Of a DNA stretch of 24,817 nt, positions 1,300-21,102 are shown in pieces. Numbering within the stretch: position 1 is the first letter of the stretch; each line of letters opens with the position of its first letter. The stretch spans positions 1 to 24,817 of IMG/VR virus record IMGVR_UViG_3300031688_000126. One strand, written 5' to 3'. The stretch is from a virus. The notes under the pieces were generated by a model, which saw only the letters and a list, made by a program, of their open reading frames with translations, did not search any database and was not told the DNA's origin. A program made the translations under genes and the position numbers.

Positions 1300-1923
1300 T
1301 TATTTAATAGGTGCACCAAGAAACCAACTTACTAATGAATATCTTACACCCTTTGTTACAGGTGCAACTCTATGTTCCATACCTGTTGTAAAAAATACCA
1401 TACTTCCTGCTTTTAAATTAACTGGTATATTTTTACACTTTCCTTGACGGTAACTACAAAATTCAAAACCACCACCTTCAAAGTTATCATTTAATATTAA
1501 AGACATACTTATCTTTCTAACCTTACCGTGCATAAAAGAATTTTGTGGCAAGTCATAAGTCGATAAACTATCTGAAATACCATCGGTGTGCCATCCATAA
1601 AAGCCATCTTTTTTGTAACGAGTTATCTGCATATCTTCAGCAGCGCTAATATCTAAATTCCAACTAGATTTTTTATTAGCTTCTAACATATATAGCCAAA
1701 TTAAATCATAAAGCCATTGTTCAGAAGTCCAATAAACATCACTTATTCTAACTTTAGTATCTTTTTTGTAATCATCCTTTTGACCTGCATAGATTTTTTC
1801 TTTAGTTGAAGCAACGGTAGAGTCTACCCATTTACTTTTGCCGAGGTTTTTTATTCTATTACAAGTTTTTTTATCTATAACTTTATCAAAAATGCACCAT
1901 TCATTAGTAAACTGTATACTCAT
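1300..1923 (-). CDS. 2-oxoglutarate/Fe(II) dioxygenase-like protein (PKHD type), copy 1
   Basis: At 207 residues, this has the usual length of a phage PKHD-type 2OG-Fe(II) oxygenase, a double-stranded beta-helix fold. Ligands seen are H112-x-D114 (in FYGWHTDG), H184 (in GMEHRVAPV) and R194 (in KGVRYSLVSWFLG); the strand NDNFEGGGFEF is typical of the family. It lies 9 bases before its paralogue at 697-1290 and follows a small tail-type gene by 32 bases. Like its sister it lacks an obvious ribosome site. The first 25 or so coding bases and the C-terminal codons are almost the same in both copies at DNA level, so the duplication is either fairly recent or its ends have been homogenised. The reaction class is confident; the substrate is not known. 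Confidence 0.88.
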   Translation of the reverse strand: MSIQFTNEWCIFDKVIDKKTCNRIKNLGKSKWVDSTVASTKEKIYAGQKDDYKKDTKVRISDVYWTSEQWLYDLIWLYMLEANKKSSWNLDISAAEDMQITRYKKDGFYGWHTDGISDSLSTYDLPQNSFMHGKVRKISMSLILNDNFEGGGFEFCSYRQGKCKNIPVNLKAGSMVFFTTGMEHRVAPVTKGVRYSLVSWFLGAPIK

Positions 1924-11130: not shown

Positions 11131-11536
11131 CGAATTTGTCTTTCATTGGTGATGAATCTATATTAACAATAACCTCATCGTCAGACATCTCTTCTGGTTC
11201 TATAAGTTCTGCTTCTGGGGTTGAGCCAATCTGTTGTTTAATGCTTTCTATCGAAGCTACATTAATAATAACCTGTGCGTCTGCTTTAGTTCTTGAAGAG
11301 TCAACCGCTTTATGAACAGGCAATATTCTATCGAGGCACATTTTTAAACAGTTTACATCGCCCTCTAATGCTTTCTCTAATACTTTAGCCACAATCTCTG
11401 GCGACTTAGTAGACATTAATTCTCTTGAAAGAGCAGCATACTTGTTAACAGAGCCCTTAGTTCTTCCTGCGGGGTTTAAAGGTTTCATACCCTTATGGAA
11501 GTTAGGGTTTCCTCGTTTCTTCTTTGGTTCTGCCAT
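11123..11536 (-). CDS. Terminase small subunit-like, DNA-binding (DUF5681 type)
   Basis: A 137-residue protein with a basic N-terminal GNPNFHKGMKPLNPAGRTKG motif, typical of the DUF5681 family of phage proteins that stand in for the small terminase subunit. Helices follow (KYAALSRELMSTKSPEIVAK, LEKALEGDVNCLKMCLDRIL), and the C-terminal 40 residues are acidic (PEEMSDDEVIVNIDSSPM). It overlaps the large subunit by 8 bases and is the first gene of the late transcript. The start has only weak ribosome-site similarity. The small subunit recognises the packaging site and regulates the motor; here this is inference from position and the motif. Confidence 0.85.
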   Translation of the reverse strand: MAEPKKKRGNPNFHKGMKPLNPAGRTKGSVNKYAALSRELMSTKSPEIVAKVLEKALEGDVNCLKMCLDRILPVHKAVDSSRTKADAQVIINVASIESIKQQIGSTPEAELIEPEEMSDDEVIVNIDSSPMKDKFDE

Positions 11537-11565: not shown

Positions 11566-11595
11566 ATTATAGCACAGCTAGGAGTTATGTTTCAA
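11566..11595 (-). promoter_or_regulatory. Sigma70-type promoter for late (terminase to fibre) operon
   Basis: On the minus strand TTGAAA (-35, 11590-11595), an 18-base spacer and TATAAT (-10, 11566-11571) with TGC before it form a near-consensus, extended -10 promoter. It lies 30 bases before the terminase small-subunit ATG. It suggests the host RNA polymerase reads the late genes, in agreement with no phage polymerase in the window. Confidence 0.75.
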
Positions 11596-11641
11596 ATTTC
11601 GTTTTTTGTGCGTTGGAGGTATTATATATATAAAGCCTTGC

Positions 11642-11680
11642 CAAGCATGGCCCCCCTCTGGGGGTCATTGCTTGTATTTT
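11642..11680 (+). terminator. Strong hairpin, terminator-like on plus strand
   Basis: CAAGCA-TGGCCCCC / loop CTCT / GGGGGTCA-T-TGCTTG gives a 14-bp stem with one bulge and one G-T, followed by TATTTT. It lies upstream of the late promoter and could stop stray rightward transcripts that arise in the late operon as antisense. The short U tract leaves room for another structural role. Confidence 0.5.
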
Positions 11681-11779
11681 AATACTTAGCTTCGCTAAGC
11701 CCTAGCCTGTAGCTCTTGACCTTATCCCTTTAATACTCAGCTTTGCTGAGCCAAGGCTCGTATGCTCTTGACTTGCTCT
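11678..11779. repeat. Two 51-bp imperfect tandem repeats with conserved hairpins
   Basis: The units begin TAATACTTAG (11680) and TAATACTCAG (11731). Each has a small hairpin, CTTAGC-TTC-GCTAAG (11685-11699) and CTCAGC-TTT-GCTGAG (11736-11750), then GCTCTTGAC. The T-to-C change in one arm is matched by A-to-G in the other, so pairing is kept. Confidence 0.75.
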
Positions 11780-11889
11780 GCTGTTTGAGGGCTGGTGATA
11801 AGGCTGGCAATAACTGGAGTGCCACGCTAACTCATGTTATTCTAGGCTTATGCTAGCCCGAAGTGAGCCGACTCTTAGGCGAATCCTTC

Positions 11890-11930
11890 ATGCTCTTGCG
11901 ATACTTAGCGACGGAGGAGCATAGTATCGC
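11890..11930. other. Interleaved inverted repeats (alternate stems)
   Basis: ATGCTC (11890-11895) pairs with GAGCAT (11917-11922), while GCGATACT (11898-11905) pairs with AGTATCGC (11923-11930). The two stems are interleaved, so only one can form at a time unless as a strained pseudoknot; they could form a switch in RNA or a structured DNA site. Confidence 0.6.
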
Positions 11931-12092
11931 CCATTTCTGAGCGGTAAGTAAATGTATGAGGGGTACTAAATATTTGCCCTCTATAAAAAGATTATCTACC
12001 ACGAAGCAAAGCACTAGAATATATTTTCTTTATTAGAGATATATTAAATGGCTTGTTGTTTTGTCTGTATCTGCAAAGCGTATATTGTAGCT

Positions 12093-12223
12093 GATAAAGT
12101 GGTTTTCTGTCAATCAATTGTTTAACTATATTTTAATCTGGACTACTAGATAGTTGGCTGTGGTTCTATAGAAACATTCTACACCTGTGAGAATTTGATA
12201 TAATAGAACCAGTTACAAAGAAA
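12093..12223 (+). promoter_or_regulatory. Early rightward promoter module P1
   Basis: The -10 is TATAAT at 12199-12204 with TG at 12196 (extended -10) and a poor -35. Seven bases after it stands AGTTACAAAGAAA (12211-12223). Upstream are GATAAAGTGGT (12093-12103), TAATCTGGACTAC (12134-12146) and GGTTCTATAGAA (12162-12173, holding the palindrome TTCTATAGAA). The same motifs occur in module P2 at 13961-14055, some inverted, so they are probably regulator or promoter elements. It drives the genes at 12271 and 12573. Confidence 0.65.
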
Positions 12224-12270
12224 GACGGCAATTCCTAAGAAGAAACTTTTTTTTACTACGGAGAAACAAA

Positions 12271-12528
12271 ATGCAACAACTAAAAATACAATTAATACCA
12301 CACGGAAAAACACCTAGTAACACATCAGCAAATATCTGGTTTCTATTAAAAGAAAATAAATATTTTGAAATCAATAATTTTACAGAAACAAATGCCAACG
12401 ACTCAACAAAAGAAGAAGAACATTTTATTGTAATAGATTTTGAAATGAAAAATTTTCAAGAAGTCCATTATGTAATTAATTCTTTACAGGGTTTAGGTTT
12501 TATTGAGTCTAACAAATCTTACGATTAA
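12271..12528 (+). CDS. Unknown early protein, first gene of P1
   Basis: An 85-residue protein, MQQLKIQLIPHGKTPSNTSA at the start, then WFLLKENKYFEINNFTE and EEHFIVIDFEMKNFQEVHYV. It is mixed alpha/beta by look, with no membrane segment or cysteine. CGGAGAAACAAA gives a clear ribosome site. It is the first gene after promoter P1, with a 60-base leader, and is followed by a GNRA-capped hairpin and a second small gene, then a terminator. First-expressed small phage genes often act on host defence or transcription, but nothing here shows this directly. I do not recognise the family. Confidence 0.75.
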   Translation: MQQLKIQLIPHGKTPSNTSANIWFLLKENKYFEINNFTETNANDSTKEEEHFIVIDFEMKNFQEVHYVINSLQGLGFIESNKSYD

Positions 12529-12535
12529 TTTTAAC

Positions 12536-12551
12536 GGGGGCGAAAGCCCCC
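12536..12551 (+). other. GNRA-capped G/C hairpin between two early genes
   Basis: GGGGGC-GAAA-GCCCCC is a perfect 6-bp stem with a GAAA tetraloop. It has no U tract after it, so it is more likely an mRNA stabiliser, processing mark or partial terminator separating the 12271 and 12573 genes. Confidence 0.65.
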
Positions 12552-12572
12552 AACACAAACGGAGAAATAAAA

Positions 12573-12899
12573 ATGATTACAAGAGTATGCAGAGATGATT
12601 TTGAAAGAGCGTTCAAAGACTCACAATATGAAAATAATTTTAGCGGTCTTGGTCTAATGGTTTTATTTGACTACTTAGAATTAAGAGAGGAGCAACAAGG
12701 CGATGATTTTGATTTTGAAACTTGGTCAGTTTGCGAAGATTACAAAGAGTACGAAAGTTTTACAGATTTTTTTGCACAGCATGGCGAGTATACAAAATAC
12801 CAAAACATCGACGAGTTAGCAGACGAATATAATGTTTTAAAAATTAAAGATTGGCAAGACAATGGAGAAGGTTTCATTATTGAATTGTTCAACGAGTAA
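12573..12899 (+). CDS. Acidic early protein, unknown phage family
   Basis: A 108-residue, strongly acidic protein: LMVLFDYLELREEQQGDDFDFETW, VCEDYKEYESFTDFFAQHGE, DELADEYNVLKI, and GEGFIIELFNE at the end. The pattern 'FS..GL..LFDYLE.LEE..G...E.D...C.(D/E)Y.EY.S' is one I recognise from hypothetical proteins across many phages, without assigned function. The charge and position among the first-expressed genes would fit a DNA-mimic or host-takeover factor, which is inference only. It has a CGGAGAAATAAAA ribosome site, lies 44 bases after the first gene, and is followed 27 bases later by an intrinsic terminator, so these two genes form a closed early unit. Confidence 0.82.
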   Translation: MITRVCRDDFERAFKDSQYENNFSGLGLMVLFDYLELREEQQGDDFDFETWSVCEDYKEYESFTDFFAQHGEYTKYQNIDELADEYNVLKIKDWQDNGEGFIIELFNE

Positions 12900-12926
12900 C
12901 TCCGTAATAAAACCATCGCGTTTTAT

Positions 12927-12960
12927 CCCCCCACTGATTTATTAACGGGGGGTTTTTTTT
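12927..12960 (+). terminator. Intrinsic terminator of first early operon
   Basis: CCCCCC (12927-12932), a 14-base loop, GGGGGG (12947-12952) and eight T (12953-12960): a classic rho-independent terminator 27 bases after the stop at 12899. Confidence 0.9.
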
Positions 12961-13078
12961 GTCTATCGATTTTCGCACTAGCTCTTTCATTGTCGATTAG
13001 CTTTTGCTTTCGCTCGGTTGTTTCTGTTCTTTGAAACATTAAGAGCATAGACTAAGCCGACAGGCTTACCTTATTTCT

Positions 13079-13251
13079 TTTGCTCTTGCTCTTAGTGAAG
13101 CGTCTTAGCTGAAACCTTCACGCTCTTGATTTGCTCTACTAAAACTGAGCCGACTTAGGCGAAACCTTTACGATTTCTAAAAAAAAATTTTCCCCTGCGG
13201 GGCTAAGAGAATGACTCGCTAATCGCTCGGCTATGATAGAGCAAGAGCAAA
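13079..13251. repeat. 14-bp inverted repeat pair
   Basis: TTTGCTCTTGCTCT (13079-13092) is exactly inverted at 13238-13251 (AGAGCAAGAGCAAA). A second, partly overlapping pair, TTGATTTGCTCT (13126-13137) with AGAGCAAATCAA (13244-13255), competes for the same right-hand partner. Confidence 0.8.
13179..13202 (-). terminator. Minor terminator-like hairpin, minus strand
   Basis: On the minus strand CCCC-GCA-GGGG is followed by AAAATTTTTTTTT. The stem is short and the U run comes after four A, so it is at best a back-up terminator for leftward transcripts. Confidence 0.4.
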
Positions 13252-13304
13252 TCAAAAGCACATCAAGAACAAGAGCCATCGGCCAGAGTGAAAAGCTAAG
13301 AGCG

Positions 13305-13335
13305 AAAAAATACCCGACTAAATTAGTCAGGTATT
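13305..13335 (-). terminator. Intrinsic terminator of the leftward small operon
   Basis: On the minus strand AATACC-x-GACTAA pairs with TTAGTC-x-GGTATT (12 pairs, one mismatch, very small loop), then a run of six T. It lies 15 bases after the stop of the gene at 13351-13575. Confidence 0.82.
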
Positions 13336-13774: not shown

Positions 13775-13960
13775 CATAGGTATAGATAAGTTGTGTACTT
13801 ATTTAATAAATAAATCTAAAATAAATTGGATTAATTTTAACCTATCTTAGCCTTGATTTAAGGGTACTTTATTTTTAGTGGGGTAATGCTATAGGTACAA
13901 GGGCGTTCGTTGAATTGGTACTCTCAAGAAACAAAAGTTTCTTCTTAGGAAACTATATTC

Positions 13961-14055
13961 CTATAGAACCAGATGGGATAAAGTGGTAGTCCAGATTATA
14001 AATAGGTGGTAAATAGTTATTTACTTATGGTAAACTTAGTTCAGTAACAAAGAAA
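13961..14055 (+). promoter_or_regulatory. Early rightward promoter module P2
   Basis: It has CTATAGAACC (13961-13970, inverse of P1's GGTTCTATAG), GATAAAGTGGT (13977-13987), GTAGTCCAGATTA (13986-13998, inverse of a P1 block), a palindrome GTAAAT-AGTT-ATTTAC (14009-14024), TGG-TAAACT as a weak extended -10 (14028-14036), and AGTAACAAAGAAA (14043-14055) seven bases later, the same spacing as in P1. It should drive the replication operon from 14082. Confidence 0.6.
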
Positions 14056-14806: not shown

Positions 14807-15361
14807 ATGAAAGAAGATAACATTTATAAAGCAATACTACAAGCAAGAGGAATGATTGGTTCAGTTAAGAAGAACGCCAAGAACCCATTCTTTAAATCTA
14901 ACTACGCAGATATTAACAATGTGATTGAAACAATTGCACCAGTCTGCGACTCATTGGGTATTTGTTTTACTCAATGTCCAAAGGTAACAGATGGCAATGC
15001 TGATGTGTTAGTAACAAGGCTAACACTACTAGCTAACCCCGACTCATTCATTGAGTCAGAGATTAGATTGTTCCTACCTACCGCAGACATGCAGAAGTTA
15101 GGCTCGGCAATAACTTACGCAAGGCGATACGCTTTGATAAGTATGTTCGGATTAGAAACAGAAGATGATGACGGGCAGTCAGTAACTAAACAACTAACAC
15201 CAACGCAGAAAAAGAACCAAGCTATTGTCAAGGCGATGGATAAATTAGTTGAGGCACACAAGAACAAAGACATTGAAACTGCTACTAATATATATGAGTG
15301 GGCAGAAGATAATGAATATGGTCAAGTGTTAGACAAACACATACAACTATTTGGAGAATGA
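14807..15361 (+). CDS. erf: ERF-family single-strand annealing recombinase
   Basis: A 184-residue protein of the ERF family (P22 Erf-like), which anneals complementary single strands and helps circularise or recombine phage DNA. Family marks: IYKAILQARGMIGSVKKNA (6-24), NPFFKSNYADINNVIETIAP (26-45), SFIESEIRLFLPTADMQKLG (80-99) and GSAITYARRYALISMFGL (99-116), followed by the acidic EDDDGQS. The C-terminal third is Lys-rich helical (KKNQAIVKAMDKLVEAHKNK). The AAGGAGCGAC site is clear. It works with the NinB-like, RusA and YbcO-like proteins downstream in the same operon. Confidence 0.93.
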   Translation: MKEDNIYKAILQARGMIGSVKKNAKNPFFKSNYADINNVIETIAPVCDSLGICFTQCPKVTDGNADVLVTRLTLLANPDSFIESEIRLFLPTADMQKLGSAITYARRYALISMFGLETEDDDGQSVTKQLTPTQKKNQAIVKAMDKLVEAHKNKDIETATNIYEWAEDNEYGQVLDKHIQLFGE

Positions 15362-20562: not shown

Positions 20563-20602
20563 TACTGGTGTATAATTATCATTTTAAATAGAGTAACCAG
20601 TA
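20563..20602 (+). promoter_or_regulatory. Promoter and inverted-repeat operator of the RHH gene
   Basis: TACTGGT (20563-20569) and ACCAGTA (20596-20602) form an inverted repeat surrounding the -10 TATAAT (20571-20576); the right arm includes the A of the start codon. This fits autoregulation by the ribbon-helix-helix protein encoded next. Confidence 0.55.
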
Positions 20603-20781
20603 TGAACGAAGCAACAGAACAGATTAATCTAAAGATTAACAAGAGAGATTTAAAGTTTATAGATGCAAAGGCTGAGAGATATGGAATTAGTCGCTCATCT
20701 TTGCTGAAGATATTTGCATTAAACGGAGAGTTATCCGTAGCAAATTTAAATAGGGATAAATTAAGACTACCAGTTACCTAG
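20602..20781 (+). CDS. Ribbon-helix-helix regulator (CopG/Arc type)
   Basis: A 59-residue protein, MNEATEQINLKINKRDLKFI then DAKAERYGISRSSLLKIFAL and NGELSVANLNRDKLR. The strand (EQINLKINKRD) followed by two helices with the turn 'YGISRSSLLKI' is the standard ribbon-helix-helix layout of Arc/CopG-type repressors, which bind DNA as dimers by the strand. It is likely to regulate phage transcription. The inverted repeat spanning its promoter and start suggests self-control. It is preceded by its own TATAAT and follows the lipoprotein gene by 47 bases. The gene is not coupled to its neighbour, unlike most here. Confidence 0.83.
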   Translation: MNEATEQINLKINKRDLKFIDAKAERYGISRSSLLKIFALNGELSVANLNRDKLRLPVT

Positions 20782-20921: not shown

Positions 20922-20962
20922 ACTAGTTTTCGGGGGGATTTCTCACCATGAGTACATCGTGG

Positions 20963-21000
20963 ACACTATACTGCCCCCATAGTTTATGAAGGTATAGTGT
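20963..21000. other. Convergent junction inverted repeat
   Basis: ACACTATAC (20963-20971) and GTATAGTGT (20992-21000) form perfect 9-bp arms with a 20-base loop. No long U tract follows on either strand. It may be a terminator of the rightward early transcript or an operator; its function is unproven. Confidence 0.5.
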
Positions 21001-21074
21001 AAGTTAAGACTGCGTTGATGTGGGTATGTACAATCAACAAGGCGAGGGTTATAATATTCCCTTTTTGGCAAGTT

Positions 21075-21102
21075 TACCTGTACTTGTGCCACAGAACAGG
21101 TA
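21075..21102. terminator. Hairpin at end of leftward lysozyme gene, convergent junction
   Basis: TACCTGT (21075-21081) pairs with ACAGGTA (21096-21102) and an inner TGT/ACA pair extends it. It lies one base after the minus-strand lysozyme stop at 21104. It could end the leftward transcript or protect its 3' end; the U tract is missing on the minus strand. Confidence 0.45.

Follow-up and report, generated by a model that had tools for sequence, protein, structure and literature searches.

Covarying non-coding hairpin modules border an exchangeable accessory-gene array in an uncultured phage lineage

What kind of element is formed by the short repeats and folded non-coding stretches that separate the late and early genes of an uncultured phage? 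The window, that is, the whole stretch of DNA analysed here, is a 24.8-kb linear virus record (24,817 nt; IMG/VR IMGVR_UViG_3300031688_000126). Its late operon runs leftward, with terS at 11536-11123 followed by terL, and its early operon runs rightward from about 14070 and encodes an Erf-like annealing protein (a single-strand-annealing recombinase, 14807-15361) and a DnaB-like helicase. Between the two lies a variable region made up of plus-strand genes (12271-12899), minus-strand ORFs (13721-13351) and two gene-free blocks (Table 1). A DNA comparison with 50,697 records of cultured phages returned nothing similar to the window, and a tRNA scan of the window was empty. Relatives of its terL are abundant in IMG/VR, and about 40 relatives, all uncultured phages, were compared.

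An earlier note on this locus had listed seven GCTCTTG sites, set in repeats of a diverged motif in G+C-rich, folded DNA free of reading frames, and had read them as iteron-like repeats beside divergent promoters, as expected of an origin of replication or a packaging/regulatory RNA. The seven sites are where it placed them: they are the only matches in the window, five direct and two inverted, and all fall inside the two blocks, with successive spacings of 52, 128, 1190 and 40 before the inverted copies. Window-wide, 2.76 ± 1.69 sites were expected and 1 of 100 shuffles reached seven; within the two blocks the expectation was 0.25, and none of 1000 shuffles reached the observed number. GCTCTTG is the commonest 7-mer in the blocks, where the linkers joining hairpin modules are of the GCTCTTG/GCTTTGC type, and both strands entering block 2 are rich in GCTCTT. 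The diverged motif is equally real, with TCTTAGGCGAATCCTTCATGCTCTTG at 11873-11898 and further copies at 13103 (85%) and 13153 (69%). G+C content is about 0.45-0.47 in block 1 and 0.41-0.44 in block 2, compared with 0.30-0.40 over most of the window, and both blocks fold more strongly than shuffled sequence on both strands (z = -3.4 on plus and -2.1 on minus for block 1, -4.6 and -6.3 respectively for block 2). Freedom from reading frames holds for the two blocks as delimited in Table 1, not for the whole interval that had been described, which contains the two plus-strand accessory genes. Nor are the transcription units around block 2 divergent; they converge on it, each ending in an intrinsic terminator.

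Table 1. Positions of the features of the variable region and its borders in the window
Feature	Position	Strand	Basis or remark
Late promoter P2 of terS, TTGAAA-18-TATAAT	11566-11595	-	-10 conserved
Block 1, gene-free: hairpin modules, with GCTCTTG three times in direct orientation	11640-12000	.	sequence, counts, folding
GC-rich hairpin ATGGCCCCCC-TCTG-GGGGGTCAT	11647-11668	.	relatives have GAGCCTCCCCC-type hairpin at same place
Perfect hairpin CTTAGC-TTC-GCTAAG	11685-11699	.	sequence
Second perfect hairpin copy CTCAGC-TTT-GCTGAG	11736-11750	.	sequence
Stem A: long three-segment hairpin, covarying, one copy per genome	11788-11860	+	reading on + gives two invariant G.T pairs
Conserved box GAGCCGACTCTTAGGCGAATCCTT: GCC...GGC mini-hairpin and GAAWCCTT	11865-11888	+	sequence, conservation in relatives
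Stem C: GCGATACT...AGTATCGC, covarying helix; tandem GA/GA variant among relatives	11898-11930	+	
Conserved tail of block 1: CATTTCTGAGCGGTAAG...GAGGGGTACTAAATATTT	11931-11975	+	conservation in relatives
Promoter P1, TTGACA-18-TACAAT, leftward through block 1 towards terS	12113-12084	-	conserved in most clade members
Extended -10 TGATATAAT of plus accessory unit, beside TAGA/TCTA palindromes	12196-12204	+	sequence
Exchangeable accessory genes 1 and 2 (products of 85 and 108 aa)	12271-12528, 12573-12899	+	no family match
Intergenic hairpin GGGGGC-GAAA-GCCCCC, then SD (ACGGAG)	12536-12551	+	between plus accessory genes
Intrinsic terminator of plus accessory unit	12927-12960	+	sequence
Block 2: hairpin modules, flanked by the two converging terminators; GCTCTT points inward at each end	12966-13305	.	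counts, folding
Module D: GCTCGGTTGTTTC-TGTTCTTT-GAAACATTAAGAGC, covarying stem, constant TGYTCTTT loop	13012-13046	+	
Box copy 2 GAAGCGTCTTAGCTGAAACCTT; stem altered on both sides to AGC/GCT	13097-13118	+	repeat comparison
Box copy 3 GAGCCGACTTAGGCGAAACCTT	13147-13168	+	repeat comparison
Diverged inverted box copy, approximate ends	13206-13230	-	sequence
Intrinsic terminator of minus accessory unit	13335-13309	-	
Minus accessory unit ORFs	13721-13575 and 13575-13351	-	

Repeats and folding are both kept in the relatives, in the form of covarying hairpin modules; the number, spacing, position and strand of GCTCTTG differ from one relative to another. The conserved units are hairpins, namely stem A, the box, stem C and hairpins with a TGYTCTTT loop, and their stems stay paired through compensatory changes, which indicates selection on pairing. 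Stem A is single-copy in 31 loci, and its half-sites are spaced 11-12 bp. In an alignment of its pairs 97% of cells are paired, with 23 double-change cells compared with 7.5 in shuffles and 0-4 in slid controls; G-C pairs change to U-A or A-U, A-U to G-C, and the apical GGAGT/ACTC to GAAC/GTTC. Stem C and the box are 95% paired with 22 double-change cells (8.7 in shuffles), and three pairs of stem C covary, showing as many as three pair types. The 24-bp box, TTAGGCGAAWCCTT, is present in the window as three direct copies and one diverged inverted copy, and the TGYTCTTT loop is carried by at least five unrelated stems. In a 34-kb relative (G002, or L095) block 1 consists of some ten near-perfect hairpins in series, their loops 3-4 nt long, and the seven perfect hairpins of the genome are all found there, within 250 bp. 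The hairpin-SD unit between accessory genes (12536-12565) is kept between different genes in 15 phages, is 78-98% conserved and has a closing pair that covaries C-G/A-T. With helices kept through two-sided changes, the locus is a conserved structured element. Strong folding is present in the array-bearing clade and absent from the more distant L044, L060, L038, L072 and L058, the first three of which also lack the hairpin array. That the box and stem A are strongly conserved points to a specific binding partner, for which a role as shared homology would give no need; this tells against the explanation preferred below.

The hairpin modules have been gained, lost, inverted and relocated between the two blocks. 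In most genomes stem A followed by the box lies some 210-400 nt from terS; in six (L025, L028, L057, L059, L101 and L106) the distance is about 1.6 kb and the pair is fused to a block-2 tail. Stem C is variably present, module D is found in both orientations (inverted in L025 and L028), and stem A is inverted in L027. The accessory sets between the blocks vary too, with products of 85 and 108 aa in the window, 77 and 108 in L009, 77, 77 and 87 in L004, 90, 77 and 91 in L005, and 90 and 87 in L093, closely shared genes being 95-100% identical. Gene 2 of the window is 96% identical to that of L009 and is missing from L004, although the terS of L004 is 95% identical; gene 2 of L004 is that of L005, and its gene 3 that of L093. 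Single genes have been swapped one by one between near-identical genomes, and the non-coding modules remain.

The blocks themselves are composite. The left half of block 2 in the window is 90% like L046 over its full length, with L009 matching only a third, and the right half, for which L046 has no match, is 91% like L009. Taken segment by segment, the closest relatives are L004 for terS, the P1 region and ORF74, L009 for gene 2, L046 and L055 for the left of block 2, L009, L011 and L105 for its right, L009 and L011 for ORF48, and L093 for the operator. By these comparisons the window is a mosaic with switches in or near the modules, and the modules may be the cause of the mosaicism. An ArdC-type antirestriction gene (PF08401 and PF18818, matched on the L095 protein) occupies the same variable region in L057 (upstream of terS), L095 and L017, which suggests an anti-defence locus. 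A protein of about 290 aa near the blocks of relatives, considered as an RNA-guided nuclease, proved to be this ArdC antirestriction protein.

A match to P1 (TTGAC[AT]-18-TA[AC]AAT) lies 355-715 nt upstream of terS in 15 of the 21 array-bearing genomes scanned and in none of four array-less outgroups; L004, L093, L105, L017, L029 and L045 gave no match at the threshold used. Fourteen relatives have a TTGAC[AT]-18-TAAAAT version, with a different spacer sequence. Since block 1 lies downstream of this conserved promoter, it is probably a leader of about 540 nt for the late operon. In L057-type genomes P1 still precedes the terS leader, and the ArdC gene has a consensus promoter of its own. A conserved GTTTTTTGTGCGTTGGAGG block (11601-11619) stands just upstream of P2. 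Two features fit the plus strand, opposite to P1: the invariant G.T pairs in stem A and, in stem C, the tandem GA/GA variant. Folding z-scores and counts of G.U versus A.C gave mixed answers as to strand, and wobble pairs in the small hairpins are likewise mixed, with no clear strand; the minus terminator, taken as a control, gave the expected minus-strand wobbles. Scans of the relatives detected no plus-strand promoter ahead of block 1, and scans of the window and relatives detected no sigma-70-like one between genes 1 and 2.

The plus and minus accessory units have promoter/leader sequence in common, present as inverted copies at 12131-12177 and 13955-14001 (CTGGACTAC...GGTTCTATAG), and a second inverted pair is found at 12232-12254 and 13929-13951 (TTCCTAAGAAGAAACTTTT). 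Just before the plus terminator, ACTCCGTAATAAAA (12899-12912), conserved in many relatives, is complementary to the SD of the genes (TACGGAG); it is either an anti-SD 3' UTR or the relic of an inverted gene start.

The covarying helices, and a conserved P1 upstream of a long structured late-operon leader, could mean that block 1, and the A-box-C unit, is a functional structured RNA, acting either in cis, as a leader with an effect on RNA polymerase or on the late mRNA, or in trans as a stable RNA. The cis-acting form would be put- or nut-like antitermination with the GYTCTTT loops as boxA-like sites, and the TGYTCTTT loops do resemble the boxA consensus GYTCTTTAANA (PMC5725501). The locus shares with boxA, nut and put RNAs the GYTCTT-type sequence, the hairpins and the position of a long leader behind a phage late promoter, but its sites occur on both strands, and it has no conserved boxB and no recognised N- or Q-like gene. 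The nearest match to the boxA consensus is GTTCTTTGAAA in module D; the repeated GCTCTTG deviates at position 7. As sites near P1 are also lost in L009, L105 and L017, the identification of GCTCTTG with boxA, which the loops had suggested, is doubtful. Moreover, stem A and the box lie outside the terS leader in L025/L057-type genomes, and stem A can be inverted. A functional RNA is possible but doubtful. Its most specific version is rather unlikely; here block 1 would be a new class of phage structured leader RNA with interchangeable covarying domains (A, box, C and TGYTCTTT hairpins), and the phage would use it to control the switch from early to late expression with no known antitermination protein involved. 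An origin of replication is improbable. Iterons and single-stranded hairpins would here lie beside an AT-rich stretch (12000-12130) and P1, which could prime synthesis; the spaced half-sites of the single-copy stem A fit this, as do the numerous 3-nt-loop hairpins, a type that is stable when the DNA is single-stranded, and a cumulative skew minimum at 11467. That minimum, the outcome of a check proposed in the earlier note, coincides with a gene-strand switch, as skew turns do everywhere, including in longer contigs of relatives. There is no adjacent initiator gene, and the array is absent from the related L044, L060 and L038. Iteron origins of plasmids and phages also have short repeats beside an AT-rich stretch, but here spacing is irregular, orientation mixed and number variable, with no conserved iteron. 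The iteron interpretation is not supported by this comparison, the conserved items being the covarying hairpins.

Modularity, inversion and variable number would also be expected if selfish, functionless palindromes of the REP/MITE kind had accumulated between the genes. REP/BIME and small palindromic repeats similarly form short perfect intergenic hairpins, but here these keep to a single locus, their stems differ in sequence and a few modules are strongly conserved; there is no spread elsewhere in the genomes searched, and the single-copy stem A and the selection on pairing also make this explanation very unlikely. Least credible is a packaging recognition site (pac/cos). The conserved repeats do lie immediately upstream of terS, but their position beside terS is not fixed in the relatives: the most conserved module, stem A with the box, is about 1.6 kb away in the six genomes named above, and the same box recurs in block 2.

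The explanation that we prefer, with a probability of about one half, is that the blocks are PeSL-like regulatory and recombination boundary modules of an exchangeable accessory-gene array, whose shared sequence lets a phage recombinase shuffle cassettes. Such modules would delimit the array, which lies between the leftward late operon (terS) and the rightward early operon. Each block draws on one set of conserved parts, comprising stem A, stem C, the 24-bp box, hairpins with the TGYTCTTT loop and perfect mini-hairpins, and the modules keep their foldability while being gained, lost, moved and inverted. The homology that they supply may be where the Erf-like recombinase swaps cassettes, as has been proposed for PeSLs. 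Block 1 would most likely be transcribed leftward from P1 as the late-operon leader, and block 2 would act as a spacer separating the two convergent terminators.

PeSLs (promoter-early stem-loops) of T4-type phages (Arbiol et al. 2010; Comeau et al. 2014; both as cited in PMC4503421) are summarised in the latter as conserved promoter/stem-loop modules that separate the small accessory genes of a hypervariable region and are believed to bring about gene shuffling. The likeness lies in a stem-loop between exchangeable small genes, as in the hairpin-SD unit found here. PeSLs have an early promoter in each intergenic unit, whereas here the GAAA-loop hairpin and SD stand without one; the boundary blocks are large, combine many hairpins and contain a 24-bp box, and the phage group is unrelated. 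By its behaviour the locus is closest to the PeSL shuffling modules, and by its lack of the promoter it is not a member. The swapping of single-gene cassettes between conserved non-coding hairpin modules, described mainly in T4-type phages, is documented here in an uncultured phage lineage, and what guides the shuffling of phage accessory genes becomes testable by metagenomic junction mapping and metatranscriptomes.

The suggestion that the pattern has no named counterpart agrees with our searches of Rfam (nothing at the gathering threshold or at E<=10), of cultured phages, and of 84,980 prokaryote species, each represented by a single genome, from which the exact box pattern is absent. Covariance models and exact coordinates are now given for elements found in no RNA library. 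Models R1 and R2 had no match on 44 extra contigs fetched via the RHH gene described below, contigs that may not all reach the terS side.

Other parts of the window also yielded observations. Two adjacent tail-region proteins of similar make-up are encoded at 697-1290 and 1300-1923 (minus strand), the former matching the 2OG-Fe(II) oxygenase family. A 59-aa protein (20602-20781, plus strand) has a weak match, below the curated cut-off, to a NikA-like (ribbon-helix-helix, RHH) Pfam model; it is 90-100% identical in most of 51 contigs, where most neighbours are 40-80% identical, and its silent sites have diverged. Upstream of its gene is a palindrome, AATAGATTCTATT (TAGA/TCTA, Arc-like half-sites), which recalls TTCTATAGAA at the accessory promoter near 12168, and the protein is possibly a master regulator. 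As a co-occurring partner of the blocks it was rejected, its likely TAGA/TCTA sites falling in promoters, outside the blocks. Finally, a highly conserved non-coding element without an Rfam match lies between the convergent early and late operons at 20935-21102 (plus strand). Its hairpin CCATG-AGTACAT-CGTGG, with a covarying stem and a loop invariant in 39 sequences, can kiss the hairpin GTTGAT-GTGGGTATGTACA-ATCAAC via GUACAU/AUGUAC, and an H-type pseudoknot follows (GGCAAG-TTT-ACCTGT-A-CTTGTGCC-...-ACAGGT). Both hairpins occur in 39 sequences, 30 of which also have the pseudoknot; the element is a strong candidate for an undescribed structured RNA.
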